Shown: piece after piece, positions 3,096 to 41,428 of the stretch | Layout: every line of letters begins with the position of its first letter | How positions within the stretch are numbered: position 1 is the stretch's first letter | Origin: a candidate division BRC1 bacterium HGW-BRC1-1 | Lineage (GTDB): Bacteria > Sumerlaeota > Sumerlaeia > Sumerlaeales > Sumerlaeaceae | Length of the DNA stretch: 46,219 nucleotides | Direction of reading: 5' to 3' | NCBI GenBank assembly: GCA_002842095.1 | Contig: PHCB01000006.1 | Coordinates: 147,501-193,719, forward strand | Translations under genes and position numbers: made by a program | The notes under the pieces: model-generated | Told to the model about the DNA's origin: nothing | The model's database searches: none | What the model saw: the letters and a program-made list of their open reading frames with translations, nothing else

Positions 3096-3198
3096 AAAAA
3101 AAAGCAGGGTGCTGCTGGCTGTTTCACCACGCTGATGGGGAGCTGGTTGCCAGGGGGGGGCAACCACATCAGCGGTGCCGAAACGCCGCGCACCCTGC
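3096..3198 (-). ncRNA. Nested stem structure followed by U8 (ncRNA end or large terminator)
   Basis: Four helices nest perfectly: GCAGGGTGC/GCACCCTGC (3104-3112 with 3190-3198), GTTTC/GAAAC extended by GGC/GCC across a one-base bulge (3117-3125 with 3180-3187), CGCTGATG/CATCAGCG (3130-3137 with 3167-3174) and GGTTGCC/GGCAACC (3145-3151 with 3159-3165). On the minus strand the structure is followed at once by eight U (3103-3096). That fits the 3' end and terminator of an unannotated minus-strand RNA starting somewhere in 3200-3440. On the plus strand it would lie in the mqnD leader. It does not match tmRNA, RNase P, SRP or 6S consensus segments that I can recall. Confidence 0.5.
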
Positions 3199-3449
3199 AT
3201 AACTGGCAATTATTTACCGGGATGATTTGGAGAAGGGGTTTGCCGAACACACATCGCCTGCTCCCGGGAAACTTACCATATTTGCAGGGTTGGACAGGCA
3301 CCGCCAAGGTAGGTTCCTTGTCCACAGCGAAATCGACCTTCTTTTTTACGATTTCTTTGAAACCCCAATCTGCACCCTTTCCGAATTCTCTCCCGCCCAC
3401 GCCATAGCATTGCCTCAGGACCTTCAGAAAGGCGATCAACCCACTAATC

Positions 3450-4286
3450 ATGGCACCCCAACACCTGACCCTCGGTCACAGCCCCGACCCCGACGACGCG
3501 TTCATGTTTTACGCCCTCGCGAAAGGCAAGATCGACACGCGCGGCTACACTTTCGAACACATTCTTCAGGACATCCAGACCCTCAACGAGCGCGCCACGC
3601 GCGGCGAACTGGACATCACCGCCGTCTCCATCCACGCCTTCGCTTACATTGCCGACAAGTACGCGCTGCTCGCCAGCGGCGCCAGCATGGGCGACAACTA
3701 CGGCCCCATGGTTGTGGCCAGCGAAGCGCTGTCCGTCGCCGACCTCAACAAAACCGAAATCGCCATCCCCGGCGAGATGACCTCGGCCTTCCTCGAATTG
3801 AAGCTCGCCATCGGCGAGTTCCCCTACGCCGTGGTTCCCTTCGATGAAATCATCCCCGCCGTGGTCGCGGGCAAGTTTGCCGCCGGACTCATCATCCACG
3901 AAGGACAAATGACTTACGCCCAGGCGGGTCTCAAAAAAATCTTCGACCTCGGCGAATGGTGGCAGGAAAAGTACAACCTGCCGCTGCCCCTGGGCGGCAA
4001 TGTGGTGCGGCGCTCCCTGGGCGACGAGACCATCCGCGAAGTTTCCGCGATCCTCAAGGAGAGCATCCAGTACGGCCTCGACCATCGCCATGAGGCGGTG
4101 GATTACTCGCTCTCGTGGGCACGCGACATGGACCACGATCTGGCCGACGAATTTGTGGGCATGTACGTGAACGAACTCACCGTGGATTACGGCGAGCGGG
4201 GGCGCAAAGCGGTGCATCTCTTGCTGGAGTTGGCCGCCGAGAAGGGCCTCATACCCGCCAAACCCGACGTGGTTTTCGTCGCCTGA
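3450..4286 (+). CDS. mqnD: 1,4-dihydroxy-6-naphthoate synthase-type protein (MqnD family)
   Basis: MqnD converts cyclic dehypoxanthinyl futalosine to 1,4-dihydroxy-6-naphthoate in the futalosine route to menaquinone. The 278-residue protein is the right size and has the periplasmic-binding-protein-like fold signature. Near the N-terminus is SPDPDDAFMFYAL, the variant of the MqnA/MqnD SPCPNDTF motif. Later come HEGQMTYAQ and LPLGGNVVRRSLG, which carry the conserved His and Gly residues expected at the active site. There is no signal peptide, so it acts in the cytoplasm. No other menaquinone genes are adjacent. The ribosome-binding site is weak. MqnA and MqnD are related; the length and motifs favour MqnD. 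Confidence 0.8.
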   Translation: MAPQHLTLGHSPDPDDAFMFYALAKGKIDTRGYTFEHILQDIQTLNERATRGELDITAVSIHAFAYIADKYALLASGASMGDNYGPMVVASEALSVADLNKTEIAIPGEMTSAFLELKLAIGEFPYAVVPFDEIIPAVVAGKFAAGLIIHEGQMTYAQAGLKKIFDLGEWWQEKYNLPLPLGGNVVRRSLGDETIREVSAILKESIQYGLDHRHEAVDYSLSWARDMDHDLADEFVGMYVNELTVDYGERGRKAVHLLLELAAEKGLIPAKPDVVFVA

Positions 4287-4464
4287 CACCAGGTTCGTAA
4301 CGCCCCGCCGTTAGCTGAAAAATTTTACATCCTTTCTGCCACCGTCGCTCGTTATGCGTTGACGATGGGTAATGGGACCGTACTGATTTCTCTGTCATCA
4401 ACTTGTCATAGGAATCTTCACGGGCGTGGGGACGCTCCGGTAGCTTCCAACAGGAGAAAACGTC

Positions 4465-6432
4465 ATTTCTACTCAACCCGATAACAACGAACAAATCGAT
4501 ATTAACGACGAAGCAAACTATCCAACCCGTTCGGGCTGGGCGTGGGTTCCATCCCTGTACTTTGCTCAGGGCATTCCCTATGTCATCGTCACCATGGTCT
4601 CGGCGGCCATGTACAAACGGTTCGGCGTGTCCAACGCCAACATCGGTTGGTACACCAGCCTGCTCGGTCTGCCATGGGTTATCAAGCCCCTCTGGGGACC
4701 CCTTGTGGACCTCTACTGGACCAAGCGCAAGTGGACCCTCTCCACCCAGGCTCTGATGGCCATCGGCCTCATCATCACCGCGTTTTTGCTTCCCACCAAT
4801 ATGTGGTGGACCGGCTCTCTGATAGTCTTTGCGCTTATGGCGTTCGCCTCGGCCACCCACGATATTGCCGCGGACGGCTTCTACATGCTGGGGCTCGACC
4901 CCCACCGACAGGCGCTGTTCAACGGCATTCGATCTACCTTCTGGCGTCTGTCGATGATCATCGGCACCGGCGTGCTGGTTATCCTTGCCGGGGTGCTCGA
5001 ATCCCACAGCGGGCCCACACCGGTTACGTTTTCGGTGAATGCCGGGCCTCCCGGGCGCGAGGTTACTGTAGTCGCCCCCGCCCCCGGCGCGGATGAGTTT
5101 GTGATCATCGAGCCGCGTCTGATGAACATCGACGCCGGCACCACGCAACTGCTGACCCTGAAACTGGCCAGCGCCCCTGAGGCCGGCACCACCGTGGCCC
5201 TCAGCGTTTCTCCCAAGCATTCCAAATGGTACGAGTTCTTCGTGCCCGTGGGCGAGGCGAACAACATAAAGATCCACGATGCGGATCGCGTGGAATTGAA
5301 CTCGGAAACATGGAACACCGGCAAGACCGTGGTGGTTCAGGTGGACAAGAACCTCAAAACCCCCGTTCTCGGAAACTTCAATGTGGCCTCGGGAAAAATC
5401 CCGTGGGCATGGGGAATTTGCATCGGCGTAGTGGCGGGCGTTTTCACGCTGCTGTGGCTGTGGCACATGGTTATGCTACCAAAGCCCGCCCTCGACGACC
5501 GCGACACCACGGGACGCCCCCCGTTCATCCAGGCCGCCTTCTGGTTGTTTGTGGCTGTGGGTGTGCCGCTGGCGGTGCTGTGGGGTGCTTACTCCTTTGT
5601 TAAACCGATGTTTGTGAGTCTTCTCCTCGACGTCGATGCTATGGCTCCTAGACGATTTAAAAACCTTTCCGATCTCATCGGCTTCGGCGTATGGGGAATC
5701 ATCGGTCTGGTCGCCTGGATGTTGATCTCCAAAGCCGGATTGGGCAGACCCGCCGCGGCAGGATTCCGCGAAGCGGCACGACGCAGTGGCCTGCCCTTCG
5801 ACGAGGTGTTCGCATCGTTCTTCCGCAAGCCGGGCATTGGCCGGATGATCATCTTCCTGCTGGTTTATCGCCTCGCTGACGCGCTGCTCGTGAAGATGAT
5901 TCCGCCCTTCATGCTCGACTCCCACGAAGTGGGCGGGCTCGGGTTGTCGACGACCCAATACGGCCTCGCTTACGGAACCATCGGTGTGCTGGGTCTGCTG
6001 CTGGGCGGCATCGCCGGCAGCGTTTATGCAGCCACTCAGGGCCTGCTGAAGGTGCGGTTGGTCATGTGCCTGTTCATGAACCTGCCCATCCTGCTGTTTG
6101 TTATGCTGGCGTATTTCCAGCCATCGTTCCTGACCATCATGGGATCGGTATTCATCGAACAGTTCGGCTACGGCTTCGGCTTCTCCATGTACATGCTCTA
6201 CATGCTCTACATAGCAGGTCAGGGTGTGAACAAGGCGTCGCACTATGCCCTTTGCACGGGCTTCATGGCGCTTAGCTTCATGCTACCCGGCATGTTGAGC
6301 GGTATCCTGCAGGAGTTCCTGGGCTACGAATACTACTTCATCATGGTGACGGCCCTGGCCAGCCTGAGCTTCGTGTCAATCTACATAATTCCGATCGATC
6401 CCGAGTTCGGTCTAAAGAAAAAGAAAGCCTGA
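4465..6432 (+). CDS. MFS transporter (AmpG/PucC-like) with extracytoplasmic insert; ATT start
   Basis: A predicted 655-residue major facilitator protein. The N-terminal half contains WVPSLYFAQGIPYVIV, a cytoplasmic loop with GPLVDLYW, and DIAADGFYMLGLD, which resemble AmpG, PucC and SLC33-type members. Between helices of the first bundle (about residues 180-311) there is a soluble, Pro/Thr/Val-rich insert. A membrane-anchored linker and six more helices follow. No ATG, GTG or TTG lies in frame between the stop at 4441 and the ATG at 4594, and a start at 4594 would remove the conserved first helix. AGGAG (4452-4456) is 8 nt before an ATT at 4465, so that is the best start. A terminator follows at 6464. 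The substrate is unknown; AmpG carries muropeptides. Confidence 0.8.
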   Translation: MSTQPDNNEQIDINDEANYPTRSGWAWVPSLYFAQGIPYVIVTMVSAAMYKRFGVSNANIGWYTSLLGLPWVIKPLWGPLVDLYWTKRKWTLSTQALMAIGLIITAFLLPTNMWWTGSLIVFALMAFASATHDIAADGFYMLGLDPHRQALFNGIRSTFWRLSMIIGTGVLVILAGVLESHSGPTPVTFSVNAGPPGREVTVVAPAPGADEFVIIEPRLMNIDAGTTQLLTLKLASAPEAGTTVALSVSPKHSKWYEFFVPVGEANNIKIHDADRVELNSETWNTGKTVVVQVDKNLKTPVLGNFNVASGKIPWAWGICIGVVAGVFTLLWLWHMVMLPKPALDDRDTTGRPPFIQAAFWLFVAVGVPLAVLWGAYSFVKPMFVSLLLDVDAMAPRRFKNLSDLIGFGVWGIIGLVAWMLISKAGLGRPAAAGFREAARRSGLPFDEVFASFFRKPGIGRMIIFLLVYRLADALLVKMIPPFMLDSHEVGGLGLSTTQYGLAYGTIGVLGLLLGGIAGSVYAATQGLLKVRLVMCLFMNLPILLFVMLAYFQPSFLTIMGSVFIEQFGYGFGFSMYMLYMLYIAGQGVNKASHYALCTGFMALSFMLPGMLSGILQEFLGYEYYFIMVTALASLSFVSIYIIPIDPEFGLKKKKA

Positions 6433-6463
6433 CGTAGGGCGGGCTTTTAGAAATGCGATACCA

Positions 6464-6495
6464 GGGGCAGGCCTAATGGGTCTGCCCCTTTTTTT
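6464..6495 (+). terminator. Rho-independent terminator after the MFS gene
   Basis: Perfect 7-bp stem GGGGCAG/CTGCCCC (6464-6470 with 6482-6488) followed by seven T (6489-6495), 31 bases after the MFS stop codon. Confidence 0.9.
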
Positions 6496-7046
6496 GTGAG
6501 GGAACAGAAAATTCGAGGTTCCCGTTCCAAAGGTGAAGATCCCGCTCCAACAGTTTGGGTTTTACCTGCGGAGCAGGTCGAGGCCGGTAGCCGGACATTA
6601 CACGTGAGATAAAATCCAACGGTTTGGTTTTTGCCTGCGGAGCAGGTCGCGGGGAGTAACCGGGGCGTGGAGGGAGCGCAGCGACCGGAACCCCCGGAAC
6701 GCATCAAAATACGTTCCAGCCCCGGATGGGGCGGCGGAAACACAGGTCCAGCCCAGTAACATGATTTACATCACGCCGCAATCCGCGGGCAGAACCATTC
6801 CATAGATCCAACCATATTTGGGTTTCATCAGCCCAATTGCCCCCCGATTCCGCCGCCCCATCCGGGGCGGGATCAAATCGCGGGTGGAACGGGGGTTCCG
6901 GTCGCTGCGCTCCCTCCACCCCCGCCTACTTGCCGCGCCCCCTCCGGGGGCAAAATGGAATAGCGTCCTGCTCTTCGAAGCGACCCCTTCGGGGGCAAAT
7001 AATTGGGCATCCACGCTGTTAAAAAAATCCCGGAAAAACGCCGCCT
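6496..7046. repeat. Non-coding cluster of short hairpins and inverted repeats
   Basis: I see no gene in this gap of about 550 bp between the MFS terminator and the convergent MDR gene. It holds two direct copies of a unit of about 36 bp (about 6545-6580 and 6615-6650), each carrying the small palindrome CCTGCGGAGCAGG. It also holds two perfect inverted-repeat blocks: 29 nt (6668-6696 with 6890-6918) and 21 nt (6719-6739 with 6848-6868). Two further 3-nt-loop hairpins lie near 6947-6961 and 6990-7000. Small open frames across it are Arg/Gly/Ser-rich and not protein-like. Confidence 0.75.
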
Positions 7047-8078
7047 TTACGGCACCAGCACCAGCTTGCCTATGTGTTGGCCTTCGGACATTTTCTCGTG
7101 GGCGCGGGCGGCATCCTCCAGCTTGAAACGCTCCGCTATGCACAGCTTGTAGCGCCCTTCGCCCAGAGCTTCCAGAATTTCGCGTTCGGCCCGCTCCAGC
7201 GTTTCGGGGCCGCCGTCCATTATTTCGCCCAACACCCACCCGCGGATGGACGCGTGTTTCCTTATCAGCGGCGACACATCCACCTTGGCCGGTTTGCCCA
7301 GGAGTCCATAAACCCAAATGGTACCGTAGTTTGCCAGCGACCTAATTTCGGTATCCAGAAACGCGCCGGCCGCCACGGGGTCAAAGAAGACGTTCACACC
7401 CCGCCCCGCCGTCAGCTTGCGTAATTCATGGTACCAGTCGGTGTCGTTACCGTCGGCGTCGCGGGTCACCACGATGTGGTCGAATTTCGCCTCGGGCATG
7501 GCGCGCAGTTCCTCCGCCTTGGCAGGGTGCGTGGTCGTGCCGATCACCTTCGCGCCGCGCTCGTGGGCCACCTGCGATGCGGCCAGACCCACGCTGCTGC
7601 TGGCGGCGGGGATGGCCACGATGTCGCCCTCGCCGATGTTCTGCTTCCAGACCAGACATCCCCACGCCGTGAGATACGGCAGCCACACAGCCCCCAGCGC
7701 ATCATCGGGCAGCCCATCGGGCGCCGGCAGCGCCTGTTCAGCCAGAACGAGGTAATGCGAGCGATACGTCCCGCCCGACGAATTGCGGTTGCGCCGCCGG
7801 GGCGCGTCGGCGCTGAGCACCACGCGCTGGCCCACGGTGCGTGTGGTTACGCCCTCGCCCAGGGCCTCAATGACGCCGCCACCCTCAAGGCCGGGGGTGA
7901 ACGGAGGCTCGCCGCTGTAAAGTTTGTACTCGCCCTTGCGCGCCATGAGATCCGCGTGGTTCAAGCCGATGCTCTTCAGCCGCACGCGCACCTGACCCGG
8001 CCCCGGTTCCGGCGTGGGTTCTTCCAGCAGATGCATCTGGTCCACGCCGCCGAATGCTTTCACCACCACGCTCTTCAT
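7047..8078 (-). CDS. Zinc-less MDR oxidoreductase (quinone reductase type)
   Basis: A 343-residue medium-chain dehydrogenase/reductase. The N-terminal GroES-like domain (about 1-125) has GQVRVRLKSIGLNHADL and the PPFTPGLEGGGVI block. The NAD(P)-binding Rossmann domain has AASSSVGLAASQVA (about residues 158-171) in place of the usual AAAGGVG. The structural zinc cysteines are missing, as in quinone oxidoreductases of the Qor/zeta-crystallin group. It probably reduces a quinone or an enone with NADPH; the true substrate is unknown. The start at 8078 has AAGG 9 nt upstream. It stands between the repeat cluster and the secreted C39-like gene and need not be functionally tied to either. Confidence 0.85.
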   Translation of the reverse strand: MKSVVVKAFGGVDQMHLLEEPTPEPGPGQVRVRLKSIGLNHADLMARKGEYKLYSGEPPFTPGLEGGGVIEALGEGVTTRTVGQRVVLSADAPRRRNRNSSGGTYRSHYLVLAEQALPAPDGLPDDALGAVWLPYLTAWGCLVWKQNIGEGDIVAIPAASSSVGLAASQVAHERGAKVIGTTTHPAKAEELRAMPEAKFDHIVVTRDADGNDTDWYHELRKLTAGRGVNVFFDPVAAGAFLDTEIRSLANYGTIWVYGLLGKPAKVDVSPLIRKHASIRGWVLGEIMDGGPETLERAEREILEALGEGRYKLCIAERFKLEDAARAHEKMSEGQHIGKLVLVP

Positions 8079-8141
8079 GATTGCCCGCCTTGTTGTTTGA
8101 ATGGGGATGCCACGCTATATGGCAACCCGCAGCGGCACAAT

Positions 8142-9788
8142 CTATTTCTCGACACGGAACCCCGCAAAGGAGACGCCGCCCGACTTCTCGGGTGTGAAAC
8201 TGCTGCGGTAATAAACCCCGCAGTCGCCCTTGCTGAACAGCCTGTTGCGACCGCGCCAGAACTCCTTGCCGTCCAGTTCGTAGATCAGTTCGTTGCCAGT
8301 GACCCGCACGGCGAACTTGTGCCAGCCGGACTCCGTCAGCTTGAAGCGCGCACCCGGACGAAAGTCGTCGATGCCGCCCCCGTCGATGCTGGCTGCGCGG
8401 ATGCCGCCGTCGTCGCCGTCGAACGTCATGGCGTAGGCCGCGCCCGATTGCGCGCCATCTTTTGTATCCCCGGCGCGGTCGGCCTGATCTCGCAGGAAAA
8501 TCCCCACCCGGTCGTAGCCGGTCTTGCCCTCGGCTTTCCGCAGATCGCAGTACACCCACGCCTCCACGCGATAATCGCTCCAGTCGGTGTCGCCCAGATA
8601 CGCGCTGGCCGTGGTGCTCGTTGCATCGTGCAGGGTGAAGGCTTTGAGCCCGCCCGGCACCGGCGGCAGTGACGACGCAGCGGCGGTCAGAGTACCGGCT
8701 CTGGTTGCCCAGTTCAACACGGGCTTGGTGCCCGTGGTGGTCTCCACCAACGGCAACGTCCACGGCCCTCGGGGAGGATCCACCGTTATGCGGGTCAGCA
8801 TTTCGTAGTCGCCCGGACCAGCCAGATAGGAGGAGCCCCACCCGCGGCCGTTGGCATCCACCAGATTCCAACGCTCGATGAACGCCGTGGGCTCGGAAAC
8901 CTGGGGCGCGGTGAGTGGGAAACAAAAAACTGCGGTATCGCTGGTGGCGAGATTTTTTTTGTCGGGTGCTGCCGCATGATATTTCGACAGCCAGCCCTTC
9001 TCGGGACGGAAGGCGCTGTCGCGCATCTGCGTGGGCGAGGTTTCGGGTACGATAGGCGCCAGATAAACTTCATCCGGCCAGGGCACGGTGCCGTTGTTGC
9101 GGACGGCAATTTCGACGGTGAAAGTTTCGCCCGGTTTCACCCGTCGCGGAGCTGTCGTTTCCGCCGTTGTTCCAGAAATAGCGTCCCTGACGGGGAACGG
9201 TTCGGGACGTAAAATCACACCACCACGCCAGAAAATCTGTTCCCAATCCACTACGCTGTCGGGCCCGCCGATCTCGTAACCGGGTGAGCGCAAGGTGGGG
9301 TCGTGAATGATCAGTCGTCCGTCGTCCGTGTAGCCGATGGCCAGAATGAAATGCCCCGCACGACTGATGGCGCTACCCAAAACGACCGGACGCCCCATGT
9401 CCAACTCGTGCTCGATGGTGCGGCGGGTCCAGCCCAGTTGGAACCAATTGGGCAGGGCATACAGGCCGTAATCGCGCGCAATGGCGGGAACATTGAACCG
9501 CTCGTACCAGGTGCGCTTGTGCAACTGCTGCACTGTGGCCGAGGTGAAATTGGGCTCGCGCCCCATGTAATGTAGCGCCATAAGCAGGCACATGGGCAGG
9601 CAGGTTTGGTTGTCAGGTTGCTGCATATACGGCACGGGCAAATGCACCCGAGCGGTGACCGAAGTCAGGGTTTCGGTGGAGGAAGTGTTCACCCCGGGCT
9701 TTGTTGCCGCAAACACCGGCAGGCTGAGCATGGCCAGAAACAACAGCGCGGTAGTGACCCGGATGGCGGTGAAACGGTGGCTTTTCAT
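8142..9788 (-). CDS. Secreted C39-like cysteine peptidase with C-terminal LamG-type domain
   Basis: A 548-residue exported protein: a signal peptide (residues 1-27, ending PVFAA) and then a C39/papain-like domain (about 48-195). The likely catalytic residues are Cys63 in NQTCLPMC, His146 in AGHFILAIGY and Asp163 in IIHDP. A beta-sandwich middle region (about 205-330, with VRNNGTVPWP) follows. The C-terminal concanavalin-like domain (about 365-548) contains YRVEAWVYCDL and GWHKFAVRVTGNELIYELDG, as in 3-keto-disaccharide hydrolase or LamG domains. An ATG at 9788 is chosen over a TTG 10 codons upstream because it directly precedes the signal peptide. It lacks an ABC transporter, so this is not a bacteriocin exporter. 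The target is unknown; a cell-surface or extracellular peptidase with a glycan-binding tail is the best guess. Confidence 0.75.
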   Translation of the reverse strand: MKSHRFTAIRVTTALLFLAMLSLPVFAATKPGVNTSSTETLTSVTARVHLPVPYMQQPDNQTCLPMCLLMALHYMGREPNFTSATVQQLHKRTWYERFNVPAIARDYGLYALPNWFQLGWTRRTIEHELDMGRPVVLGSAISRAGHFILAIGYTDDGRLIIHDPTLRSPGYEIGGPDSVVDWEQIFWRGGVILRPEPFPVRDAISGTTAETTAPRRVKPGETFTVEIAVRNNGTVPWPDEVYLAPIVPETSPTQMRDSAFRPEKGWLSKYHAAAPDKKNLATSDTAVFCFPLTAPQVSEPTAFIERWNLVDANGRGWGSSYLAGPGDYEMLTRITVDPPRGPWTLPLVETTTGTKPVLNWATRAGTLTAAASSLPPVPGGLKAFTLHDATSTTASAYLGDTDWSDYRVEAWVYCDLRKAEGKTGYDRVGIFLRDQADRAGDTKDGAQSGAAYAMTFDGDDGGIRAASIDGGGIDDFRPGARFKLTESGWHKFAVRVTGNELIYELDGKEFWRGRNRLFSKGDCGVYYRSSFTPEKSGGVSFAGFRVEK

Positions 9789-9837
9789 GAAAAGGAAGAG
9801 AGCCTCAAAACACCGCAAAAGGCAAGACCGTTTTCAG

Positions 9838-9882
9838 AAAAAAACAAAAAGGCAGCCGGGGGGATGAACTCCCTCGGCTGCC
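9838..9882 (-). terminator. Rho-independent terminator of the 9919-11949 gene
   Basis: On the minus strand GGCAGCCG...CGGCTGCC (9882-9851, with extra G-C pairs inside) is followed by a T-rich run interrupted by one G (complement of 9838-9850). It lies 36 bases after the stop codon of the propeller gene. Confidence 0.85.
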
Positions 9883-9918
9883 TGAGTTGCCTTAGTTATC
9901 GGGTAAAACGGTGGACGA

Positions 9919-11949
9919 TTAGTACATGCACCAGTCGTTCACACCAGCAGCAGCGTCAAAGCGCCACAGATCCACGGCGTTATCGCGCTGGGACAGCGTG
10001 GCGAGATATTGCGTGGTGCCCGAGGTGATGAAAACGGGCGAGCCGTTTTCGTCGATATTGCCGTTGGCTCCCGGCTCTCCGCCCACATACTCCACCTTGC
10101 CTGTGGCCAACTCAATGATGCCGGTTTTCACCGTGTAGTTGGTCGGCGTGCCGGTGTATTCGCGGTAAGACGAGAAAGCGATCCAACGTCCGGTCGGATC
10201 GGCCTTCAGCCAGTAGTTATCGCTGGACGTGCGCTTGTTCAACACAACCGCTGCGGGCGTGTCGAAGGTCGCCAGGTTGGCCAGTGTGGGGGCCGCGCCG
10301 GTGATCTTGATGAGGCTGCCCATGGCGTTGCCATAAAGCGTCTGGGAGGAAGCAACATAGACAGCACCCTGCCACATCTCGGTACCAGAAAGACTGGCGG
10401 TATCGGGCTTGTTGCCGGGGCTATCAATCAGCACGCCGCCGTCGGCTCCGGTCGTCGAATCAACCACACCGATCTGCTCCGGCGCAGCCATAAAGGGCGA
10501 CACCAGCAGCTTACCGTTGGTGTAGGCGATGGAACGGGGACGAACGCCCGCGCCATTTATCACCACGGGAGAAAGCGTTCCGGCCGTGCCGAAGGCTGCC
10601 ACCAGCGTACCTGCCGGGCTGTACTTCTTGATGTAAGAAGACGCCGCATCCGTACCCTGATAACCGATGTAGACGTTGTTGGAATCATCCAGCGTAACCA
10701 CGTTGTTGCTGCTGCTGAGGATGCTATCCGTTTGCCAGACAGCTACCGATGCCGCACCGGCCGGATTGGTGATCTTATAAATCTGGGAAGCCGCATAGTA
10801 GGCGCTGAAGTAAATGTTTCCGGCGGAATCGGCATCAAGGTTCTTTGCACGGGCTCCGGTGGGGATGACCGAAGTGATGTCGATGCGCTTGTCCCATACC
10901 CACGACGGTGCAGGAGCAGGCGTGGTGTTGACCGCAAATATCTTGAGTGACTTGCCCGATGCGGCGGGTGCCACGAGGTAGAGATTTCCGGCGGACCGGA
11001 AAAACTCCACCGCGGTGTAGCCGCTGATGTTGTTCGGCTGGCCGGGAACGTCGCCCACGAGGGTTTCGCGACCCGTGGCGATTTCGTACAGCGCATAGCG
11101 CTGATCTTGCAAGGCTGCCGCATTCTGGCGCGCGGAATAGGCGATGATGCCCGAGGTGGCATCAAAAGAGAGATTGCCGTCGTCAGTGTTGCGACGCCCG
11201 TGACGAGTGAGGAAGGTCGTGGTGTCGAAGGTCGCGAGGTTGGTCAGCGAAGCTGAAGCGCCTGTCAACTTTACCAAGTCGCCCTGGCTGTTGCCATACA
11301 AAGCGTTCGCGACTGGATCATAAGCGATGCCGCTCCACATGTCGTTACCCGTGTTAAGGCCGTTTTCGGTGGGATCGCCGGGGGTGGCAACCACACCCGT
11401 GTCGAACGCGCCCGTGGTGGCGTCAATAGAGAACAACTGCAGGGGAGCGCCCTTGAAGCTCATCATGACGAGTTTGTTGGTAGCTGCACCGGTGTAGGTG
11501 ATGGCGCGGGGACGGTGGTCGACACCTGAAATGTTGAAGGGGCCGGCAACACCCGCTGTTCCGAAGGTCGGGTCAAGGGTACCATCGGACTTATACTTGC
11601 GCACAACTGCATCGGCCACGGAAGTATAATTGGTGAGGTAAATATTGCCCGCGCCATCAGTGGCGAGGTACGAACCACTGGACGTGGGATAGGTGGCTCC
11701 GACGCTCCACGGATCGGTGACGGTGGCGACGCCCAGCGGATCGGTGATCTTGCGGATGGTGTGGGTCGGATCGCCGAAATAGGTGGTGTAGAACAGGTTT
11801 CCGTTTACGTCGGCGATGACGTCTTTTATCGCACCAGTTCCGGAGGGTGTATTGGCCGACAGGTCGATGGTTTTGACCAACGAGATGTCCATCGAGAATG
11901 CGGGCAGGGCGAGTGTGGCAACTGCTGCACACAATGCTAATTTGCGCAT
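9919..11949 (-). CDS. Secreted beta-propeller-like protein with internal duplication
   Basis: A 676-residue secreted protein: signal peptide MRKLALCAAVATLALPAFS, then repeated NHL/PQQ-like blades such as DVNGNLFYTTYFGD, DGAGNIYLTNY and DSAGNIYFSAYY. The two halves are clearly related. For example, GNDMWSGIAYDPVANALYG in the first half matches GTEMWQGAVYVASSQTLYG in the second, and each is followed by LTNLATFDT or LANLATFDT. It ends in DAAAGVNDWCMY, close to the end of the divergent neighbour at 12419. The start at 11949 has AAGGAA 9 nt upstream, and a longer ATG form would lose the signal peptide position. A terminator follows. No catalytic residues are seen; a structural or binding role outside the cell is likely. 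Confidence 0.8.
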   Translation of the reverse strand: MRKLALCAAVATLALPAFSMDISLVKTIDLSANTPSGTGAIKDVIADVNGNLFYTTYFGDPTHTIRKITDPLGVATVTDPWSVGATYPTSSGSYLATDGAGNIYLTNYTSVADAVVRKYKSDGTLDPTFGTAGVAGPFNISGVDHRPRAITYTGAATNKLVMMSFKGAPLQLFSIDATTGAFDTGVVATPGDPTENGLNTGNDMWSGIAYDPVANALYGNSQGDLVKLTGASASLTNLATFDTTTFLTRHGRRNTDDGNLSFDATSGIIAYSARQNAAALQDQRYALYEIATGRETLVGDVPGQPNNISGYTAVEFFRSAGNLYLVAPAASGKSLKIFAVNTTPAPAPSWVWDKRIDITSVIPTGARAKNLDADSAGNIYFSAYYAASQIYKITNPAGAASVAVWQTDSILSSSNNVVTLDDSNNVYIGYQGTDAASSYIKKYSPAGTLVAAFGTAGTLSPVVINGAGVRPRSIAYTNGKLLVSPFMAAPEQIGVVDSTTGADGGVLIDSPGNKPDTASLSGTEMWQGAVYVASSQTLYGNAMGSLIKITGAAPTLANLATFDTPAAVVLNKRTSSDNYWLKADPTGRWIAFSSYREYTGTPTNYTVKTGIIELATGKVEYVGGEPGANGNIDENGSPVFITSGTTQYLATLSQRDNAVDLWRFDAAAGVNDWCMY

Positions 11950-13702: not shown

Positions 13703-13713
13703 CGGGAAGGGGG

Positions 13714-13776
13714 ATGGACTATATGGACACTATGGACGAGATGGACGAGATGGACGAGATGGACGAGATGGACATC
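13714..13776 (+). repeat. Seven tandem 9-bp units ATGGACNNN
   Basis: The units are ATGGACTAT, ATGGACACT, four copies of ATGGACGAG and ATGGACATC, with exact 9-bp period. The array is the left arm of an inverted pair whose right arm is at 13877-13930. Between the arms (13777-13876) I see nothing recognisable. Confidence 0.9.
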
Positions 13777-13876
13777 GCGGAGCGTGATTCAACAGAAAGA
13801 CTGAACCCTCCCGAAAAACGGATTTAGAACCGGCCAAGCGAATTGCAAAGCCCGCCTCTCCCCAAGTCCCCCACTT

Positions 13877-13930
13877 GTCCATTCAGTCCATATCGTCCAT
13901 AGTGTCCATCTCGTCCATCACGTCCATCAC
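13877..13930 (-). repeat. Six tandem 9-bp units (inverted copy of the 13714 array)
   Basis: On the plus strand the units read GTCCATNNN (GTCCATTCA, GTCCATATC, GTCCATAGT, GTCCATCTC, and GTCCATCAC twice), the reverse complement of the ATGGAC type. The last unit contains the stop codon of the PilT-like gene, so the mRNA of the minus-strand operon must carry the array at its 3' end. Confidence 0.9.
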
Positions 13931-15036
13931 GGCATCATCATCCGTTCGCCGGTTATCTGGCGGGGGTCTCTGGCTCGGCTTATGGCGGCGTCGTACGTAA
14001 TCACCGCCCGCTGGTACAGATCCGCCAGGCAGGCGTCCATGCTTATCATTCCCTCGCGGCGGCCGGTGGCCAGGGCGTTTTCTATTTTATGGACCGCGTT
14101 CTCGCGGATCATGTTGCGTACCGCGCCGGTGGGCAGCAGCACCTCGTAGGCCAGCACGCGACCCGTGCCGTCTGCCCGTGGGATCAACTCCTGCGCCAGC
14201 ACCCCCTGCAGCGAATTGGCCAACTGAAGAATGATCTGCTTCTGCTGATCCGCCGGAAAAACGCCGATGATCCGTTCCATGGTCTGTAGCACGTTGGGCG
14301 TGTGCAGCGTTGCCATGACCAGATGCCCCGTTTCCGCCGCGGTCAGCGCGGTGGAAATCGTTTCCAGTTCGCGCATTTCGCCGATCACAATCACGTCGGG
14401 ATTTTGCCGCAGCACGTGCACCAGCGCGCTGCTGAAGGAAAGCACATCGGTGTAAACTTCCTGCTGCACAATGAGCGACCGCAGCGGGCGATGGACGTAT
14501 TCCACGGGGTCTTCGATGGTGATAATTTTGCACCGACGCTCGCGGTTGATGAGATCGATCATGTGGTTGAGCGTGGTGGTTTTGCCCATGCCGGTGGGGC
14601 CGGTGATGAGCACCAGTCCGTTGGGGCGGCGCGCGAACTCGGCCACAATGGGCGGCAGACCCAGCGAGGCGGTGTCTTCAATTTCCAGCGAACACAGGCG
14701 CACCGACAACTCCGGCACGCCCGCATGGAAATAGACCGTCACGCGCATGCGCCCTGCTTCCTTGTCGAACACCGAGAAGCACAGCTCGCGGGTTTTCTCC
14801 AGATGCTCACGTTGCACTTCGTTGAGCAGACCCAGCGTCATGGCCGCCACTTCCTCGGCGCGCAACACATCCGCTTCCAGCATGACGATCTCGCCGTTCA
14901 CACGCAGCGCGGGGGGCAGCCCGGCAATCACATGCAGGTCGCTGGCCTGCTTGGCCCGGGCAATGCGGATCAGCGTGCCGAGATAATTGTTCTGGGTGGC
15001 AACGCCTTGCTGAAGGGTCTCGATGGCTTTCATCAT
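13927..15036 (-). CDS. pilT: PilT-like twitching motility ATPase
   Basis: A 369-residue secretion ATPase of the PilT/PilU type, which powers pilus retraction or disassembly at the inner membrane. An N-terminal domain (about 20-130, with KQASDLHVIAGLPPALRVNG) precedes the RecA-like core. The core has Walker A GPTGMGKT (146-153), the Asp box IITIEDPVEYVH (171-182), Walker B VIVIGEMR (215-222) and the His box ETGHLVMATLHT (235-246). Its start codon overlaps the stop of the TPR gene (ATGA), so it is translated with it as the last gene of the operon. No pilB, pilC or pilM-Q genes are in the window; the only pilin-like gene is at 22068. PilU or another GspE-clade motor is possible. Confidence 0.88.
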   Translation of the reverse strand: MMKAIETLQQGVATQNNYLGTLIRIARAKQASDLHVIAGLPPALRVNGEIVMLEADVLRAEEVAAMTLGLLNEVQREHLEKTRELCFSVFDKEAGRMRVTVYFHAGVPELSVRLCSLEIEDTASLGLPPIVAEFARRPNGLVLITGPTGMGKTTTLNHMIDLINRERRCKIITIEDPVEYVHRPLRSLIVQQEVYTDVLSFSSALVHVLRQNPDVIVIGEMRELETISTALTAAETGHLVMATLHTPNVLQTMERIIGVFPADQQKQIILQLANSLQGVLAQELIPRADGTGRVLAYEVLLPTGAVRNMIRENAVHKIENALATGRREGMISMDACLADLYQRAVITYDAAISRARDPRQITGERMMMP

Positions 15037-15884
15037 CGTCGCATCACTCTGCGCAACGGCGCGAGAACGGATGTGAGCGCGCTGATCGGTCGCCGAGTTT
15101 CAAGGGCTTTTCGGGCGGGCATATAATCGCTGTCGAGATTCAGCGCCTCCTGATAGCTCCGCCGGGCATCGCGGCTCATCGCCAGCGCCAGTTGGCAATT
15201 GCCCTGCACGAGCCACGCGAAGGGCGACAAAAGATTTGCGTCCACTGCAACGCGGGCGTGGGCCAGGGCGCGGGCATACTGGCGATAGAAATAATAGATG
15301 CGCGCCACGAGCAGCCGCGAAAACCAATCGCGCGCGAGACTGATGGCCTGATCCAGCGCGAAGTCGACGTTCTTGCGTCGGGTTGCCAGCAGCACCTCGC
15401 CCCGCGCCAGCCAGACGAAAAATGTGCCGGCCTGCGGCGAGGCCGATGCCGCATCGATAAATTTAATCGCGGACTTGCGGTCACCCAGACGCGCCGCCGC
15501 CACCCCTTTGGCCGCCAGCAATTCACCGTGGCCGGCATTCACTTCAAGCGCGCGGTCGGCCCACACGCCGGCCTCCTTCAGCTCGCCCATCTCGATCAAC
15601 ATGCGCACCTGGCCGACCCAGGCGTCGGGACGGTTGGGGTTGTCCTGCAACGCCCGGGAGTACAAGCGCATGGCCGCCTCGAAGTTGCCCTTCTGATACT
15701 CTTCGAAGGCACACCGCATGTGGAAATGTTCGTCGATGACATCCCGCGAAGCGGTGTCGCGATGTTGCAGTTCCTCCGCGACGGACTGACTCTCCGCCGA
15801 AAGCATTTCCTGTTGCTGCGCTTGTTGGAGGGCAGGCTTGCGGGGGGGAAGATCGTCGAACTCAAGGGTGTGAAATCGGGCCAT
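15033..15884 (-). CDS. TPR-repeat protein
   Basis: A 283-residue soluble protein. A Gln/Glu-rich N-terminal region (about 15-50) precedes a chain of tetratricopeptide helices from about residue 55 to 265, with typical patterns such as YQKGNFEAAMRLYSRALQDNPNRPDAW and AWLVQGNCQLALAMSRDARRSYQEAL (shown in part only: the core is the A-x-x-x-Y/A spacing). There is no signal peptide or membrane segment, so it is probably a cytoplasmic scaffold. ATG at 15884 is preceded by GGAAGGA about 8 nt upstream, and the first codons overlap the end of the zinc-ribbon gene by 23 bp. Position between a membrane protein and a PilT ATPase suggests that it links the two. The partner is unknown. Confidence 0.75.
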   Translation of the reverse strand: MARFHTLEFDDLPPRKPALQQAQQQEMLSAESQSVAEELQHRDTASRDVIDEHFHMRCAFEEYQKGNFEAAMRLYSRALQDNPNRPDAWVGQVRMLIEMGELKEAGVWADRALEVNAGHGELLAAKGVAAARLGDRKSAIKFIDAASASPQAGTFFVWLARGEVLLATRRKNVDFALDQAISLARDWFSRLLVARIYYFYRQYARALAHARVAVDANLLSPFAWLVQGNCQLALAMSRDARRSYQEALNLDSDYMPARKALETRRPISALTSVLAPLRRVMRR

Positions 15885-16584
15885 AATCTTTTCCTTCCGA
15901 TTCGCTCCCGGACGAGTTTCTCCGGGGAAATAGCTTGGCAATTTGGTGAGCGATATAGCTGAAGACAATGAAGCCGAAGACGGCGCTAAAGAGGGCACCA
16001 ATCCCGTCAAAGATCTGAAAAGCGATAGCGTCACCGTGCCCACCCCGAATGGTCACAGTTTGAAACGATGTCATACTGCGCATGAGGGGCCAGTAAATCA
16101 CCACACCGAGAATTATCATCAGACCACCCATCGCGAACATACGATTCGCGACGTGGTTTTTGAGATACCCTGACACAAGATCGAGAAGGCTCAGGGCGTG
16201 CAGAGCGCACGCTAAACCGAGCAATATGCGGACCATGTCATCATCTCTCACCTGGAACGCAGCACCCAGCAAACCGCCCGCGCCCACCATGAAGACGATG
16301 CCAAATACATATTTCCTAAGAAAGAGATGACCCAAACCCGGCACCACTCCCGCGACCATCGCGATCACAATGGAACGTCTTGTTACCGCCCGGCTCCTCG
16401 TGAAACGCTCGCTCAAGAATCGGCCAACGCGGCGCGGTGTGGCCCACCCATTCCACCACCTGCGGAGGCCTGATGACCTCGGTGGTTCGAGGTCGATCAC
16501 GCGACCGGCCTCGGGCATGAAGTGGCACGCACGACAAACTTTATCGAGGGGTTTCATCTTCTCTCCGCAGGTGGGGCAGTTCAT
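15862..16584 (-). CDS. Zinc-ribbon polytopic membrane protein
   Basis: A 240-residue protein with an N-terminal zinc ribbon, CPTCGEKMKPLDKVCRACH (Cys3, Cys6, Cys17, Cys20), a basic linker (about 33-68) and four or five predicted helices: about 70-88, 90-110, 118-138, 146-166 and 198-222. The helix near MVAGVVPGLGHLFLRKY resembles small membrane proteins of the TM2/DUF5683 type, where the Pro-Gly-x-Gly turn is conserved. Start ATG has AAAGGAG at an 8-nt gap. The gene lies in the middle of the operon, 45 nt after the DUF2997 gene, and overlaps the TPR gene. The function is unknown; the ribbon and linker suggest a docking platform on the cytoplasmic face. Confidence 0.7.
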   Translation of the reverse strand: MNCPTCGEKMKPLDKVCRACHFMPEAGRVIDLEPPRSSGLRRWWNGWATPRRVGRFLSERFTRSRAVTRRSIVIAMVAGVVPGLGHLFLRKYVFGIVFMVGAGGLLGAAFQVRDDDMVRILLGLACALHALSLLDLVSGYLKNHVANRMFAMGGLMIILGVVIYWPLMRSMTSFQTVTIRGGHGDAIAFQIFDGIGALFSAVFGFIVFSYIAHQIAKLFPRRNSSGSESEGKDYGPISHP

Positions 16585-16629
16585 CGTGTGGCTCCTTTCA
16601 TGGATGTATCGCTACGGCGGGCCGGCACC

Positions 16630-16839
16630 TCAGCCCTGCTTGTTTTCCAGCGTGGGACGAATCTCCACGCTGCTGTCGGGCTCGAAGTGTTCCGCTGTCA
16701 TTTCGTGCGACACTTCGCGCCCCACGATGCTCTCCAGCAGTTTCATATAATCGAGGCAGCCCTTGCCCTTGGCGCCCTTGATGTGGGCGCGGACCTTCCC
16801 ATTGGGATCAATTTCAATTTCAATGTCGTGAGGTTCCAT
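16630..16839 (-). CDS. DUF2997 small protein
   Basis: A 69-residue protein resembling DUF2997. The pattern IEIEIDPNGKVRAHIKG, then GKGCLDYMKLLESIVG, matches the cyanobacterial form in which IEYRIGKDGKI is followed by a G-x-x-C and an E-x-x-L-G block. Cys28 is the conserved cysteine. It sits 19 nt downstream of the DUF1257 gene, as in genomes where DUF1257 (Ycf35), DUF2997 and the AAA+ Ycf46 are linked. The start has AAGGAA at about 7 nt. I recall no demonstrated biochemical activity for the family. The strict size and single conserved Cys make it a candidate substrate, ligand carrier or regulatory subunit, but that is inference. Confidence 0.75.
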   Translation of the reverse strand: MEPHDIEIEIDPNGKVRAHIKGAKGKGCLDYMKLLESIVGREVSHEMTAEHFEPDSSVEIRPTLENKQG

Positions 16840-16858
16840 CGTTCGTTCCTTTCGTGAA

Positions 16859-17308
16859 TCACATGGGGTAGCGGCGCACGTGCAGGTGGATGGTTTGGTC
16901 GGCGGCCTGTTCTTCTTCGATCGCCTCGAACCCCTGATTCGCGAGTTCCTGATTGAGCCGCCGGTAAACGTATTGCTGGATGATCTTGCCCGCCATCTCG
17001 CGCCCGATGGTTTCCAGTTCCGCCTGCGATTGACTGCCGCGGGCCTGCGTTTTGAACTGCCCGGCGGCGTCGCGCGAGAAGGTCAGAATCACCCCGTCGC
17101 GCTTGATGGTTATCTGTTGGTCATGGCCGAGGCTCTCGCCCACCACGTCCATGTTTTCCATGGTGAGATCCACAGAGTTGAGGTTGGCGGCGGCCTTCGC
17201 CTGCCTCTCCATGGTGAAACCCGCCGCCACCGCAGCGCTGGTTACGGCCGCAGCCAGCATGGGCCAGGCGGTGATGATGACCGGAGTTAGAATGATGCAC
17301 GCACCCAT
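16859..17308 (-). CDS. DUF1257/Ycf35-like protein with N-terminal hydrophobic segment
   Basis: A 149-residue protein whose C-terminal half (about 66-147) matches the DUF1257/Ycf35 pattern. A central QQITIKRDGVILTFSRD block is followed by QQYVYRRLNQELANQGFEAIEEEQ and IHLHVRRY, close to the plastid and cyanobacterial YAYHTVLKELEKQGF...VEEE...VVRRW. Unlike those proteins it begins with a hydrophobic stretch (about 5-31) that may be a membrane anchor. The start has AAGGA 10 nt upstream. The gene sits 18 nt after the AAA+ gene and 19 nt before DUF2997. Family function is unknown. Similarity is judged by eye and should be confirmed with a profile search. Confidence 0.65.
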   Translation of the reverse strand: MGACIILTPVIITAWPMLAAAVTSAAVAAGFTMERQAKAAANLNSVDLTMENMDVVGESLGHDQQITIKRDGVILTFSRDAAGQFKTQARGSQSQAELETIGREMAGKIIQQYVYRRLNQELANQGFEAIEEEQAADQTIHLHVRRYPM

Positions 17309-17326
17309 TATCGAATCGTCCTTTCG

Positions 17327-18904
17327 TTAGTTAATTTCAATTTTGCGGCGTTGCTCGGAGGGCAAACTTTCCTCGCGGGGCGAAGCGGGGCGCGCGCGAC
17401 CGTCGGCCCAACTGCGCAGCCTCTCCAGGTCCGCCTCCATGGTTTTCGAGAGCGGCACCGTCTCGCGCACCGCCTTCTCGATGTGCTCGGTGGAGAAGGT
17501 CTCGCCGGTGGCGAAGGAGTCGTACAGTCCCGACACGATGGCCTCGTCGATCTCCGCGCCGCTGAACCCCGCGGACGCCTCAGCCAGTCGCGGCAGGTCG
17601 AATTCGTCGGCGTTGCGCGCACGTTCTTTCAGGCGCACCGCGAAAATCTGCTGCCGTTCGGAATCGCTTGGAAGGTCCACGAAAAAGATCTCGTCGAAGC
17701 GACCCTTGCGCATGAGTTCCGGCGGCAGGTTGCTGATGTCGTTGGCCGTGGCAACCACGAAAACCGTCGATGTTTTTTCCGACAGCCACGTGAGAAACGT
17801 CCCGAACACGCGGGCCGTCACGCCGCTGTCGGAGCTACCCGAACTACGGCTGCCCGCCATGGCCTTGTCGATCTCGTCGAGCCACAACACAACCGGCGCG
17901 ATGCTCTCGGCGGTGGACAATGCGCGGCGCATGTTATCCTCGCTGCTGCCCACGAGGCTGCCGAACATGCGGCCCACGTCCAACCGCAACAGCGGCATTT
18001 TCCACAGGCCGCTCACGGCCTTGGCGCACATGCTCTTGCCGCAGCCCTGCACACCCAGCAGCAGCACGCCCTTGGGCGGCGGCAGGCCGTAGTCGCGGGC
18101 GCGGTCGGTGAACGCCAGCGCGCGCGTGCGCAGCCAGTCCTTCAGCGATTCAAGCCCGCCCACCCCGTCGAAGTTCACGTCCACATCGTAATAATCCAGC
18201 AGACCGCTCTTGCGGATGATCTGCTTCTTCTCGGCGAACACGCTCGTGATGTCGCTCTCGGTGAGACGCCCATCAGATACCAGCGTTTTCGCCAGCACGT
18301 TCTCGGCCTCGCCCAGAGTCAGCCCCAGCGCCGCCTTCAGCAGCTGCTCGCGGGCCGCCGGTGGAATGTCGATGACCACCTTCTCCGAGTTGGGCGACAT
18401 CTGCACATCGTGGACGATCTGGTCCAGCAGCCGCCCGATGTCGGCCTCATCCGGCAGCGGGAAATCGATGACCGTGGTTTCCTTTTCCAACTCCGGCGGC
18501 ACCTCCAACACCGGCGACACAAGGATGAGCGTTTTGTACGTCTCCTTGATGTGGATGGCCGTGTCCTTCAATTTGCGGATGACGGCGAAATTGTTTTTGG
18601 TGAGGAACGGGTGCAAGTCCTTGAAGATGTAAATGGCCGGCTCCACGTGACCCATCACCTCTTCAAAGGCGTTCACCGGGTCCTTCGTGTTGTTGCTCTT
18701 GGGGCGCTGGCGCTGGTTGGTGTTTTCCACCAGACCCGACGAAAAGCTCCACTCGAACAGGCGCTTGTCGCGCTTGGCTGCCAGCTTGACCAGCCAGTTG
18801 ACGACGCGCGTTTCCTCCCAGCTTACGATGTAAATGATCGGGTAACGCGCCCGGATGAGCACTTCGATTTCCTGAAGTACCTTCTCGGTGTTGACGGTCG
18901 TCAT
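17327..18904 (-). CDS. Ycf46-like AAA+ ATPase
   Basis: A 525-residue cytoplasmic ATPase. The N-terminal domain (about 1-240) starts with RARYPIIYIVSWEE, where a degenerate nucleotide-fold resembles that of Ycf46. The C-terminal AAA+ module has Walker A GVQGCGKS (284-291), Walker B VVLWLDEID (338-346), sensor 1 VVATAND (383-389), an arginine-finger region LMRKGRFDE (397-405) and a sensor-2 region FSGAEIDEA (447-455). The layout and length fit the Ycf46 family found in plastids, cyanobacteria and diverse bacteria. The start has GGGAG 8 nt upstream and lies 3 nt after the radical SAM gene. Cyanobacterial Ycf46 has been linked to CO2 use, but this organism shows no photosynthetic genes here. Likely a remodelling ATPase for partners made by the same operon. 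Confidence 0.85.
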   Translation of the reverse strand: MTTVNTEKVLQEIEVLIRARYPIIYIVSWEETRVVNWLVKLAAKRDKRLFEWSFSSGLVENTNQRQRPKSNNTKDPVNAFEEVMGHVEPAIYIFKDLHPFLTKNNFAVIRKLKDTAIHIKETYKTLILVSPVLEVPPELEKETTVIDFPLPDEADIGRLLDQIVHDVQMSPNSEKVVIDIPPAAREQLLKAALGLTLGEAENVLAKTLVSDGRLTESDITSVFAEKKQIIRKSGLLDYYDVDVNFDGVGGLESLKDWLRTRALAFTDRARDYGLPPPKGVLLLGVQGCGKSMCAKAVSGLWKMPLLRLDVGRMFGSLVGSSEDNMRRALSTAESIAPVVLWLDEIDKAMAGSRSSGSSDSGVTARVFGTFLTWLSEKTSTVFVVATANDISNLPPELMRKGRFDEIFFVDLPSDSERQQIFAVRLKERARNADEFDLPRLAEASAGFSGAEIDEAIVSGLYDSFATGETFSTEHIEKAVRETVPLSKTMEADLERLRSWADGRARPASPREESLPSEQRRKIEIN

Positions 18905-18907
18905 GGC

Positions 18908-19939
18908 TCAGGCTCCCACGTGGAATTCTTTTTGAAGATTGCGCAGACACGCCGCCAGGGGACCATTCGCGGCCAGCCCGTGGATGCACCCCGTGGCATC
19001 GATCCAGATGTCGTCGGCTTCGGCGGCAGGCGCCACCGCAGCGGCCGGCGGAGGCGACGTTACCCAGGGATGCAGCGCAACTCCCGCGGCCCGCACCATG
19101 TCGGTGGCGCGTTGCGTTTCATCGGGTCGGATGCGCCGGGCCAGATCGGGCATGGAAGCGGCACGATGGGTCGGGCGATAGCCGGGCATCAGGCTCAGTG
19201 TGGCGTCGGGCAGTTCGCGCGCCATCCAATCCACGATGGGTTGCAAGCAACAATCGAGATGCCCCGGCATGAGCAGGTGGCGCACGATGAGCGGTGTGCC
19301 GCGCTCCCGCCAGAAGCGCAGATTCATCTGCACGGTGGCCATGTAGCGCGGAAACGCAGCGAGGCGCCGGGCGCAGGCATCGTTGCCAAATTTGAAATCG
19401 GCCAGCACCACATCGGCAACGTCGGCGATCAGCGGGAGGGCTGCTTCTGATGCACAGGCGTTGGTCTTCCACACGAACGGGGTGCCGACCGAAACTTGTG
19501 AGACGAGGTCCAGAACCGAGGGCAGATGAATGGTCGGCTCGCCCCCGAGGACGCTGAAGGATTGGATTTGCGGTGTCTGCTGGTCGATGCACGCTGCCAC
19601 AGCGGATGCCTCAAGGGGCTCGCCAAGCAGGGCGTTCTGACTTTCGCGGGCCACGATGCAGAACGCACACGACAGGTTGCAGCCCGAGAGGCTGACGATG
19701 GCGCACGGGGCGAGACCTGCCTCGCCGGACCAATCCACGCTGAAATCGAACATCCGCGCCTGAGCCGGAGCCGCACAAGCGCCCGCCGGACCATGGGAGC
19801 GATCCACCCCACAGTCACGTGCGCACAGTCGGCATTCAGCCATCATGTCGGTCGCGATGGCAGCATTGCGCCGCGCGGCCTGTCTGCGGGCGGAAAGGCG
19901 GCCGGCATCCAGCGGTGGGATGGGATGAGTGGCGTTCAT
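18908..19939 (-). CDS. Radical SAM enzyme, COG1313/PflX-like
   Basis: A 343-residue radical SAM protein. The 4Fe-4S motif is CNLSCAFC (Cys87, Cys91, Cys94), followed by a GGEP motif, SVLGGEPT. Upstream is a second cysteine set, CRLCARDCG (36-43) plus Cys55, of the sort seen in the COG1313 group (C-x2-C-x3-C-G-V-x-R-x8-C). A C-terminal extension (about 290-343) includes an Ala/Pro linker. An ATG at 20041 gives a longer form, but I prefer 19939 because the extra residues are poorly conserved in character; its Shine-Dalgarno is weak. It is the first gene of the seven-gene operon. The enzyme probably activates or modifies a protein partner; the partner is unknown. Confidence 0.8.
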   Translation of the reverse strand: MNATHPIPPLDAGRLSARRQAARRNAAIATDMMAECRLCARDCGVDRSHGPAGACAAPAQARMFDFSVDWSGEAGLAPCAIVSLSGCNLSCAFCIVARESQNALLGEPLEASAVAACIDQQTPQIQSFSVLGGEPTIHLPSVLDLVSQVSVGTPFVWKTNACASEAALPLIADVADVVLADFKFGNDACARRLAAFPRYMATVQMNLRFWRERGTPLIVRHLLMPGHLDCCLQPIVDWMARELPDATLSLMPGYRPTHRAASMPDLARRIRPDETQRATDMVRAAGVALHPWVTSPPPAAAVAPAAEADDIWIDATGCIHGLAANGPLAACLRNLQKEFHVGA

Positions 19940-41231: not shown

Positions 41232-41249
41232 GCGTTGGGGGAAAGGCTA

Positions 41250-41285: not shown

Positions 41286-41306
41286 ATGAAAACCCCAACC
41301 GACTGC

Positions 41307-41378: not shown

Positions 41379-41428
41379 CCCAAACAATCCGGGAATTCCC
41401 AATTCCCGGCGTGGTTACATCTTCCGTG

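Follow-up and report, generated by a model that had tools for sequence, protein, structure and literature searches.

A seven-gene operon of Sumerlaeota and Planctomycetota combines the Ycf46/DUF1257/DUF2997 module with a radical SAM enzyme and a PilT-family ATPase

Introduction

No biochemical role is known for Ycf46 or Ycf35, although both are conserved in cyanobacteria and in the plastids of many algae. In Synechocystis, the genes duf2997, ycf35 and fed7 are clustered (PMC4284462). Work cited in PMC7496141 describes slr0373-slr0374 (ycf46)-slr0376 as a stress-responsive operon and reports that inactivation of ycf46 reduces EcaB carbonic anhydrase activity. In red-algal plastids the presence of ycf35 and ycf46 tracks habitat, together with pbsA (PMC5940233). 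The present analysis concerns an operon outside photosynthesis in which a Ycf46-type AAA+ ATPase, a DUF1257 (Ycf35-like) protein and a DUF2997 protein are encoded together with a radical S-adenosylmethionine (SAM) enzyme, a zinc-ribbon membrane protein, a tetratricopeptide repeat (TPR) protein and a PilT-family ATPase. It lies in a 46,219-nucleotide (nt) stretch, hereafter the window, from candidate division BRC1 bacterium HGW-BRC1-1 (Sumerlaeota; assembly GCA_002842095.1, contig PHCB01000006.1, positions 147,501 to 193,719). The combination is new, and every component comes from a known family or module. A search of the open-access literature, with subscription literature outside its scope, returned no description of the seven-gene operon and none joining Ycf46 with PilT and a radical SAM enzyme.

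Operon organization and conservation of gene order

All seven predicted open reading frames (ORFs) are present and adjacent on the minus strand at 13927-19939 (ORF coordinates and sequence; Table 1). In operon order they are separated by gaps of 3, 18, 19, and 45 nt and then overlap by 23 and 4 nt, an exact match to the layout given in an earlier, sequence-only reading of this DNA. Several starts are preceded by purine-rich, ribosome-binding-like stretches, and the radical SAM gene, taken to start with an ATG at 19939, has an in-frame GTG at 20041 as a possible alternative. Promoter and terminator scans gave a signal no higher than background. The profile searches that the same reading had proposed placed the radical SAM, AAA, DUF2997, TPR, and PilT proteins above their cut-offs, with only DUF1257 falling marginally short in the window (see below).

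The order radical SAM–AAA–DUF1257–DUF2997–zinc-ribbon membrane protein–TPR–PilT was found to be identical in nine further genomes, making ten across two phyla. The loci L071, L072, L075 and L076 emerged from an AAA-family scan of named genomes, to which a local profile for every one of the seven families was then applied. A second genus of Sumerlaeaceae (G003, locus L067) has all seven genes in the same order with flanks unlike those of the window, and identical order is seen in Planctomycetota at L071, L072, L075 (with two DUF1257 copies in tandem) and L076, and again at L254, L255, L256, and L258. L255 and L256 are close mutual relatives, both on contigs larger than 7 Mb. L258 is the weakest of the latter four because its radical SAM gene has an in-frame TGA and DUF1257 is not called separately, one 367-amino-acid (aa) ORF carrying the DUF2997 match. 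Different genes flank the operon in the window, in G003 and in the Planctomycetota loci.

Variant or partial forms were also found. A Chloroflexota-labelled metagenome-assembled genome (L077) has the order AAA-DUF1257-TPR-DUF2997-zinc ribbon-PilT with no radical SAM gene, L070 has an AAA gene, a small membrane-like ORF, TPR, and PilT, and at L257 the contig stops after the AAA gene. When 246 Planctomycetota genomes were surveyed with the operon radical SAM profile, the scores were bimodal, with 16 genomes exceeding 200 bits, and inspection of 14 regions gave the exact order at L254, L255, L256, and L258. DUF2997 is rare in the window's phylum, occurring in 3 of 40 genomes, one of which is G003. 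In an RpoB tree the window's genome groups with named Sumerlaeota/Sumerlaeaceae genomes (Shimodaira-Hasegawa-like approximate likelihood ratio test, SH-aLRT, 100%), and the operon is therefore present in both Sumerlaeota and Planctomycetota.

The sequence-only reading had proposed a single operon of linked function, and had set a neighborhood survey as its test. The adjacency of radical SAM, TPR and pilT genes proved not to be confined to this genome, nor did the profile searches fail to confirm DUF1257 and DUF2997, DUF1257 passing in the same-position homologues. The exact order across two phyla, together with a PilT lineage of its own, strongly supports that proposal. The comparison shows that the seven genes are a conserved unit, and they almost certainly work together.

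Table 1. Positions of the operon genes and of the adjoining repeat arrays in the window.
Feature	Position	Strand	Basis or remark
Gene 1, radical SAM enzyme	18908..19939	-	Pfam Radical_SAM E 1.8e-9, above cut-off
Gene 2, Ycf46-type AAA+ ATPase, 525 aa	17327..18904	-	Pfam AAA E 8.5e-29, above cut-off
Gene 3, DUF1257 (Ycf35-like), hydrophobic-N-terminus variant	16859..17308	-	DUF1257 22.0 bits (cut-off 22.2), alignment, hydropathy
Gene 4, DUF2997 protein, 69 aa	16630..16839	-	Pfam DUF2997 E 1.8e-14, alignment of 20 homologues
Gene 5, zinc-ribbon, putative multi-pass membrane protein	15862..16584	-	Four invariant Cys, hydrophobic stretches
Gene 6, TPR protein, 283 aa	15033..15884	-	TPR_2 E 6e-10, above cut-off
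Gene 7, PilT-family ATPase	13927..15036	-	TIGR01420 E 6e-119, above cut-off; intact motor motifs
Two facing arrays of the 9-nt unit GTCCATCTC around a spacer	13713..13931		3' end of operon, pairable into a long hairpin

The operon PilT

The operon PilT scores 397 bits against TIGR01420 (cut-off 319), and the Walker A/B, Asp and His boxes are kept in eight operon PilT copies. Operon genomes are rich in PilT/PilB; that of the window has some eight genes of PilT-like and seven of PilB/GspE-like type. When the eight operon PilTs were placed in a tree with 34 further sequences, most of which came from the same genomes, all eight fell on one side of a branch, apart from their same-genome paralogues (SH-aLRT 94), and the value rises to 99 for seven copies when the Chloroflexota-labelled one is left out. 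Within Planctomycetota their branching mirrors the RpoB tree. The operon PilT is a dedicated lineage, inherited along with the operon, and one that travels with a remodeller rather than with pilus genes.

The Ycf46-type AAA+ ATPase

The window AAA+ protein is approximately 50% identical over residues 11-508 to cyanobacterial AAA genes preceding DUF1257, and its AAA domain contains residues that are invariant across 18 homologues, as is the RFDEIFF signature. By this full-length similarity and signature it is a Ycf46-type protein. Its predicted model (predicted local distance difference test score, pLDDT, 82) aligns over residues 5-403 (~360 residues) with D1+D2 of p97, Cdc48, Rix7, and NVL at Z ~16–17. 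The global superposition is loose (root-mean-square deviation 5–9 Å), so that the orientation of the domains is uncertain. No Walker A was seen by eye in the N-terminal domain of the 18-sequence alignment, which makes a degenerate first ring the natural reading. The modeled protein thus resembles p97-type ATPases with two AAA domains in tandem, the first ring being apparently degenerate and the C-terminal domain active, and the role of remodeller suggested for it earlier gains support from this predicted p97/Rix7-like fold. The AAA tree is less tidy than that of PilT, although in it the operon copies of Sumerlaeota and Planctomycetota group together.

DUF1257 and DUF2997

The identity of DUF2997 (PF11211) was confirmed, at 53.8 bits against a gathering score of 24.1. 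It has a GxKGxxC core (20-homologue alignment) and is single-copy in the 3.77 Mb assembly. That of DUF1257 (PF06868) is less clear-cut, the window protein matching at E 2e-4 in its C-terminal part only, 0.2 bit below the cut-off, with homologues at the same operon position exceeding it (26.6 and 35.4 bits). Alignment and hydropathy indicate that operon-class DUF1257 proteins have lost the usual MSHFTTVxTKI start and have a hydrophobic N-terminus instead. DUF1257 adjoins DUF2997 at 23 of 36 DUF2997 loci by profile, and divergent DUF1257-like proteins were seen by eye at several of the remainder. An AAA gene lies within 3 kb of DUF2997 at 32 of the 36, a count biased upward because the AAA gene itself had led to most of these loci. 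Going by these neighborhoods, DUF1257 and DUF2997 form a pair that recurs. Neither has a sequence match in the PDB.

The pair was also seen on phages. In cyanophage P-SSM7 (L233, 2492-3044) overlapping DUF2997 and DUF1257 genes, annotated only as hypothetical, lie near hli, psbA and ferredoxin genes, and no AAA gene occurs in the stretch examined around them. Phage contig L060 encodes a probable DUF1257-DUF2997 fusion (9524-10042), of which the DUF1257 half is weak (E 0.006) and the DUF2997 half is under the Pfam cut-off, yet reaches E 2e-14 with a local profile.

Radical SAM, zinc-ribbon and TPR proteins

The radical SAM enzyme, which we take to be COG1313/PflX-like, has a CxxxCxxC cluster motif within its Radical_SAM domain and an N-terminal cysteine motif, the cysteines being invariant in six operon homologues. 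Against curated NCBIfam equivalogs, of which the NrdG2 and PFL-activase types were nearest, its best score of 38.3 bits is far below the cut-off (131.15). Other high-scoring Planctomycetota copies are not adjacent to an AAA gene, and the family therefore also serves elsewhere. Directly upstream of the radical SAM gene, L071, L072, L075, and L076 have a gene of the rhomboid family (c50; Rhomboid E 1e-9 in L071) that the window lacks at this position.

The window zinc-ribbon protein has no significant family match (Zn_ribbon_3, E 0.007). Its four cysteines (CxxC...CxxC) are invariant in seven homologues, and by hydropathy it has several hydrophobic stretches, supporting a multi-pass membrane protein. 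Together with the hydrophobic N-terminus of operon-class DUF1257, this favors the membrane platform that had been postulated. Longer Planctomycetota homologues carry a signal-peptidase-I-like (S26) domain (E 1.1e-7 in L075), in which the catalytic Ser and Lys appear, by eye only, to be missing; the window copy is a short form and gave no S26 match. Homologues elsewhere in the window's phylum were considered as further operons and rejected, being paralogues, several with an S26-like domain. At L222-L231 and other loci of that phylum, the membrane family likewise has an S26-like domain seemingly lacking catalytic Ser and Lys (by eye). TPR homologues were found in all operons.

Repeat arrays at the 3' end of the operon

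The facing arrays next to the PilT gene (Table 1) have a predicted fold of -107 kcal/mol (z -5.3). Their 9-nt unit has 54 matches in the genome compared with none for the reversed control, and they are probably a genome-wide element rather than an operon-specific one. Further facing 9-nt arrays around a spacer are found at 41249-41382 of the window, the array units being of GTCCATCTC or TCCCATCTC type.

The module in other lineages and on phages

A second, NrdG-like type of radical SAM gene is found beside the module in G006, Treponema (L094), Leptolyngbya (L130) and phage contigs L008, L031, and L044, and beside the AAA gene alone in L058 and L059. Upstream of the module in Myxococcota, an FHA-like gene was recognized by eye. 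In Omnitrophota, another kind of zinc-ribbon protein with a hydrophobic C-terminal end sits between AAA and DUF1257. The Treponema locus is part of a contractile-injection-system cluster (3144-11660; sheath, tube, CIS tube/LysM, hub, and spike), in which the NrdG-like radical SAM and Ycf46-type AAA genes lie between hub and spike, with DUF2997 after the spike. On many large phage contigs, including IMG/VR loci such as L007, L010, L022, L045, and L047, DUF2997 is usually absent and the AAA gene has DnaB, DnaC-like loader and primase-like genes as neighbors. An AAA relative was also found in 113 isolated-phage records, including Corndogvirus (L232), part of which may match the AAA domain only.

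Proposed mechanism and alternatives

The mechanism favored here, put forward tentatively as a full account, is a protein-remodelling complex, tethered to the membrane and dedicated to a PilT-driven machine akin to a type IV pilus. Ycf46 would assemble into a p97-like ring in which, judging from the model, the second AAA domain would hydrolyse ATP and the degenerate first domain would be structural. DUF1257 and DUF2997 would be a small adaptor pair for this ring, which the hydrophobic DUF1257 N-terminus could tether to the membrane. In this scheme the AAA protein would act with the pair, whereas the sequence-only reading had the pair itself remodelled by it. The zinc-ribbon and TPR proteins would act as membrane anchor and scaffold, recruiting the ring to the machine's base, the site at which a dedicated PilT hexamer would pull or disassemble; a subunit activated or stripped by the ring would then be moved by PilT. 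The target of the radical SAM enzyme, for maturation or modification, would be one of the operon's own proteins, plausibly DUF2997 with its conserved Gly/Cys core or DUF1257, this being the least certain step.

Taken separately, action of the operon on a pilus-like machine through PilT is given slightly less than an even chance. Remodelling of a subunit of such a machine by the AAA protein via DUF1257/DUF2997 is a tentative proposal, whilst modification of a protein of the set by the radical SAM enzyme is doubtful. The complete chain, in which the radical SAM enzyme modifies, the AAA ring remodels and PilT pulls, may be regarded as possible. It is a speculative and rather unlikely extension that these proteins would represent a kind of bacterial machine not described before: a p97-like ring with DUF1257/DUF2997 adaptors, matured by the radical SAM enzyme, would remodel a membrane complex actuated by a dedicated PilT hexamer, cyanobacterial and plastid Ycf46 and Ycf35 being branches of the same module.

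Several observations weigh against this mechanism. The operon contains no pilin or pilus assembly gene. In Omnitrophota, Myxococcota and phages the AAA/DUF1257/DUF2997 module lacks a PilT, as does AAA+DUF1257 in cyanobacteria, so that PilT partners a single branch and is not the module's general client. The association of radical SAM with DUF2997 is not significant after correction for phylogeny, with too few independent pairs, and the predicted DUF1257 model is of low confidence with no fold match. Stand-alone AAA genes of Sumerlaeota and Verrucomicrobiota lie inside or beside the operon AAA group, a pattern which suggests partner losses or later operon assembly.

It is conceivable, although unlikely, that AAA, DUF1257 and DUF2997 form a portable assembly or quality-control chaperone for several envelope or injection machines, recruited here to a pilus-like one. 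This would suit the interleaving of the radical SAM-AAA pair and DUF2997 with baseplate hub and spike genes in Treponema, the AAA family being on many phages, isolated ones included, and the different zinc-ribbon protein between AAA and DUF1257 in Omnitrophota. However, Treponema is a single injection-system case in which DUF1257 was not detected, and the large-phage AAA copies mostly lack DUF2997 and keep company with the DnaB, DnaC-like loader and primase-like genes.

A similarly low probability is assigned to a redox/iron-sulphur stress module, in which the trio would partner an Fe-S protein, a ferredoxin in cyanobacteria and a radical SAM enzyme elsewhere, with TPR and PilT merely co-regulated. 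The duf2997-ycf35-fed7 cluster of Synechocystis (PMC4284462) points this way, as do the stress response of slr0373-slr0374-slr0376 and the drop in EcaB activity on ycf46 inactivation (both as cited in PMC7496141), the red-algal plastid ycf35/ycf46 following habitat together with pbsA (PMC5940233), the position of P-SSM7 DUF2997/DUF1257 near psbA and ferredoxin, and the two distinct radical SAM types near the module. It leaves unexplained why a PilT lineage of its own should have stayed with the module in more than one phylum.

An anti-phage defence or conflict system was rejected as very improbable: the sporadic distribution, the AAA copies on phages and matches to models of the anti-phage ATPase IetA could be read in its favor, but these weak matches span the common AAA domain only, far under the curated NCBIfam cut-off (75.3 vs 510 bits), and the operon encodes no effector or nuclease. 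Chance co-location of unrelated genes, for which only the sporadic distribution speaks, is refuted, with practically no probability left to it, because ten genomes from two phyla share the exact seven-gene order within differing flanks and the operon PilTs form a clade.

Comparison with known systems

The operon supplies concrete partners for Ycf46 and Ycf35 to test outside photosynthesis, namely a recognizable motor together with an anchor in the membrane and an enzyme of modifying type. It suggests that the Ycf46/Ycf35 module is a general protein-remodelling device rather than a photosynthesis factor.

Extracellular contractile injection systems have AAA+ ATPases (Afp15-like), to which the AAA gene within the Treponema injection-system cluster may be likened by its genomic context; the window operon, in contrast, contains no injection-system gene. 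With the tandem remodellers p97/Cdc48 and Rix7/NVL, the operon AAA+ protein shares the tandem AAA fold of its model (residues 5-403), but it has only ~19% identity, a degenerate first domain and no recognisable p97 N-domain.

Synechocystis slr0373-slr0374-slr0376 resembles the cyanobacterial loci examined in having a Ycf46 AAA+ gene followed by a DUF1257 gene, which we infer to be slr0376, as in the operon. Unlike the window operon, the cyanobacterial AAA loci examined have no DUF2997, membrane zinc-ribbon or PilT gene and, except in Leptolyngbya, no radical SAM gene, and their DUF1257 has the canonical N-terminus rather than a hydrophobic one. In the duf2997-ycf35-fed7 cluster (PMC4284462) DUF2997 adjoins DUF1257 together with an Fe-S protein, as in the operon, but a ferredoxin takes the place of the radical SAM enzyme, and the cluster is described without AAA or PilT. 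Finally, the operon PilT is like PilT and PilU, the ATPases of type IV pilus retraction (TIGR01420), in its full family match and intact motor motifs, whereas it forms a separate clade and is encoded with a remodelling module instead of pilus genes.

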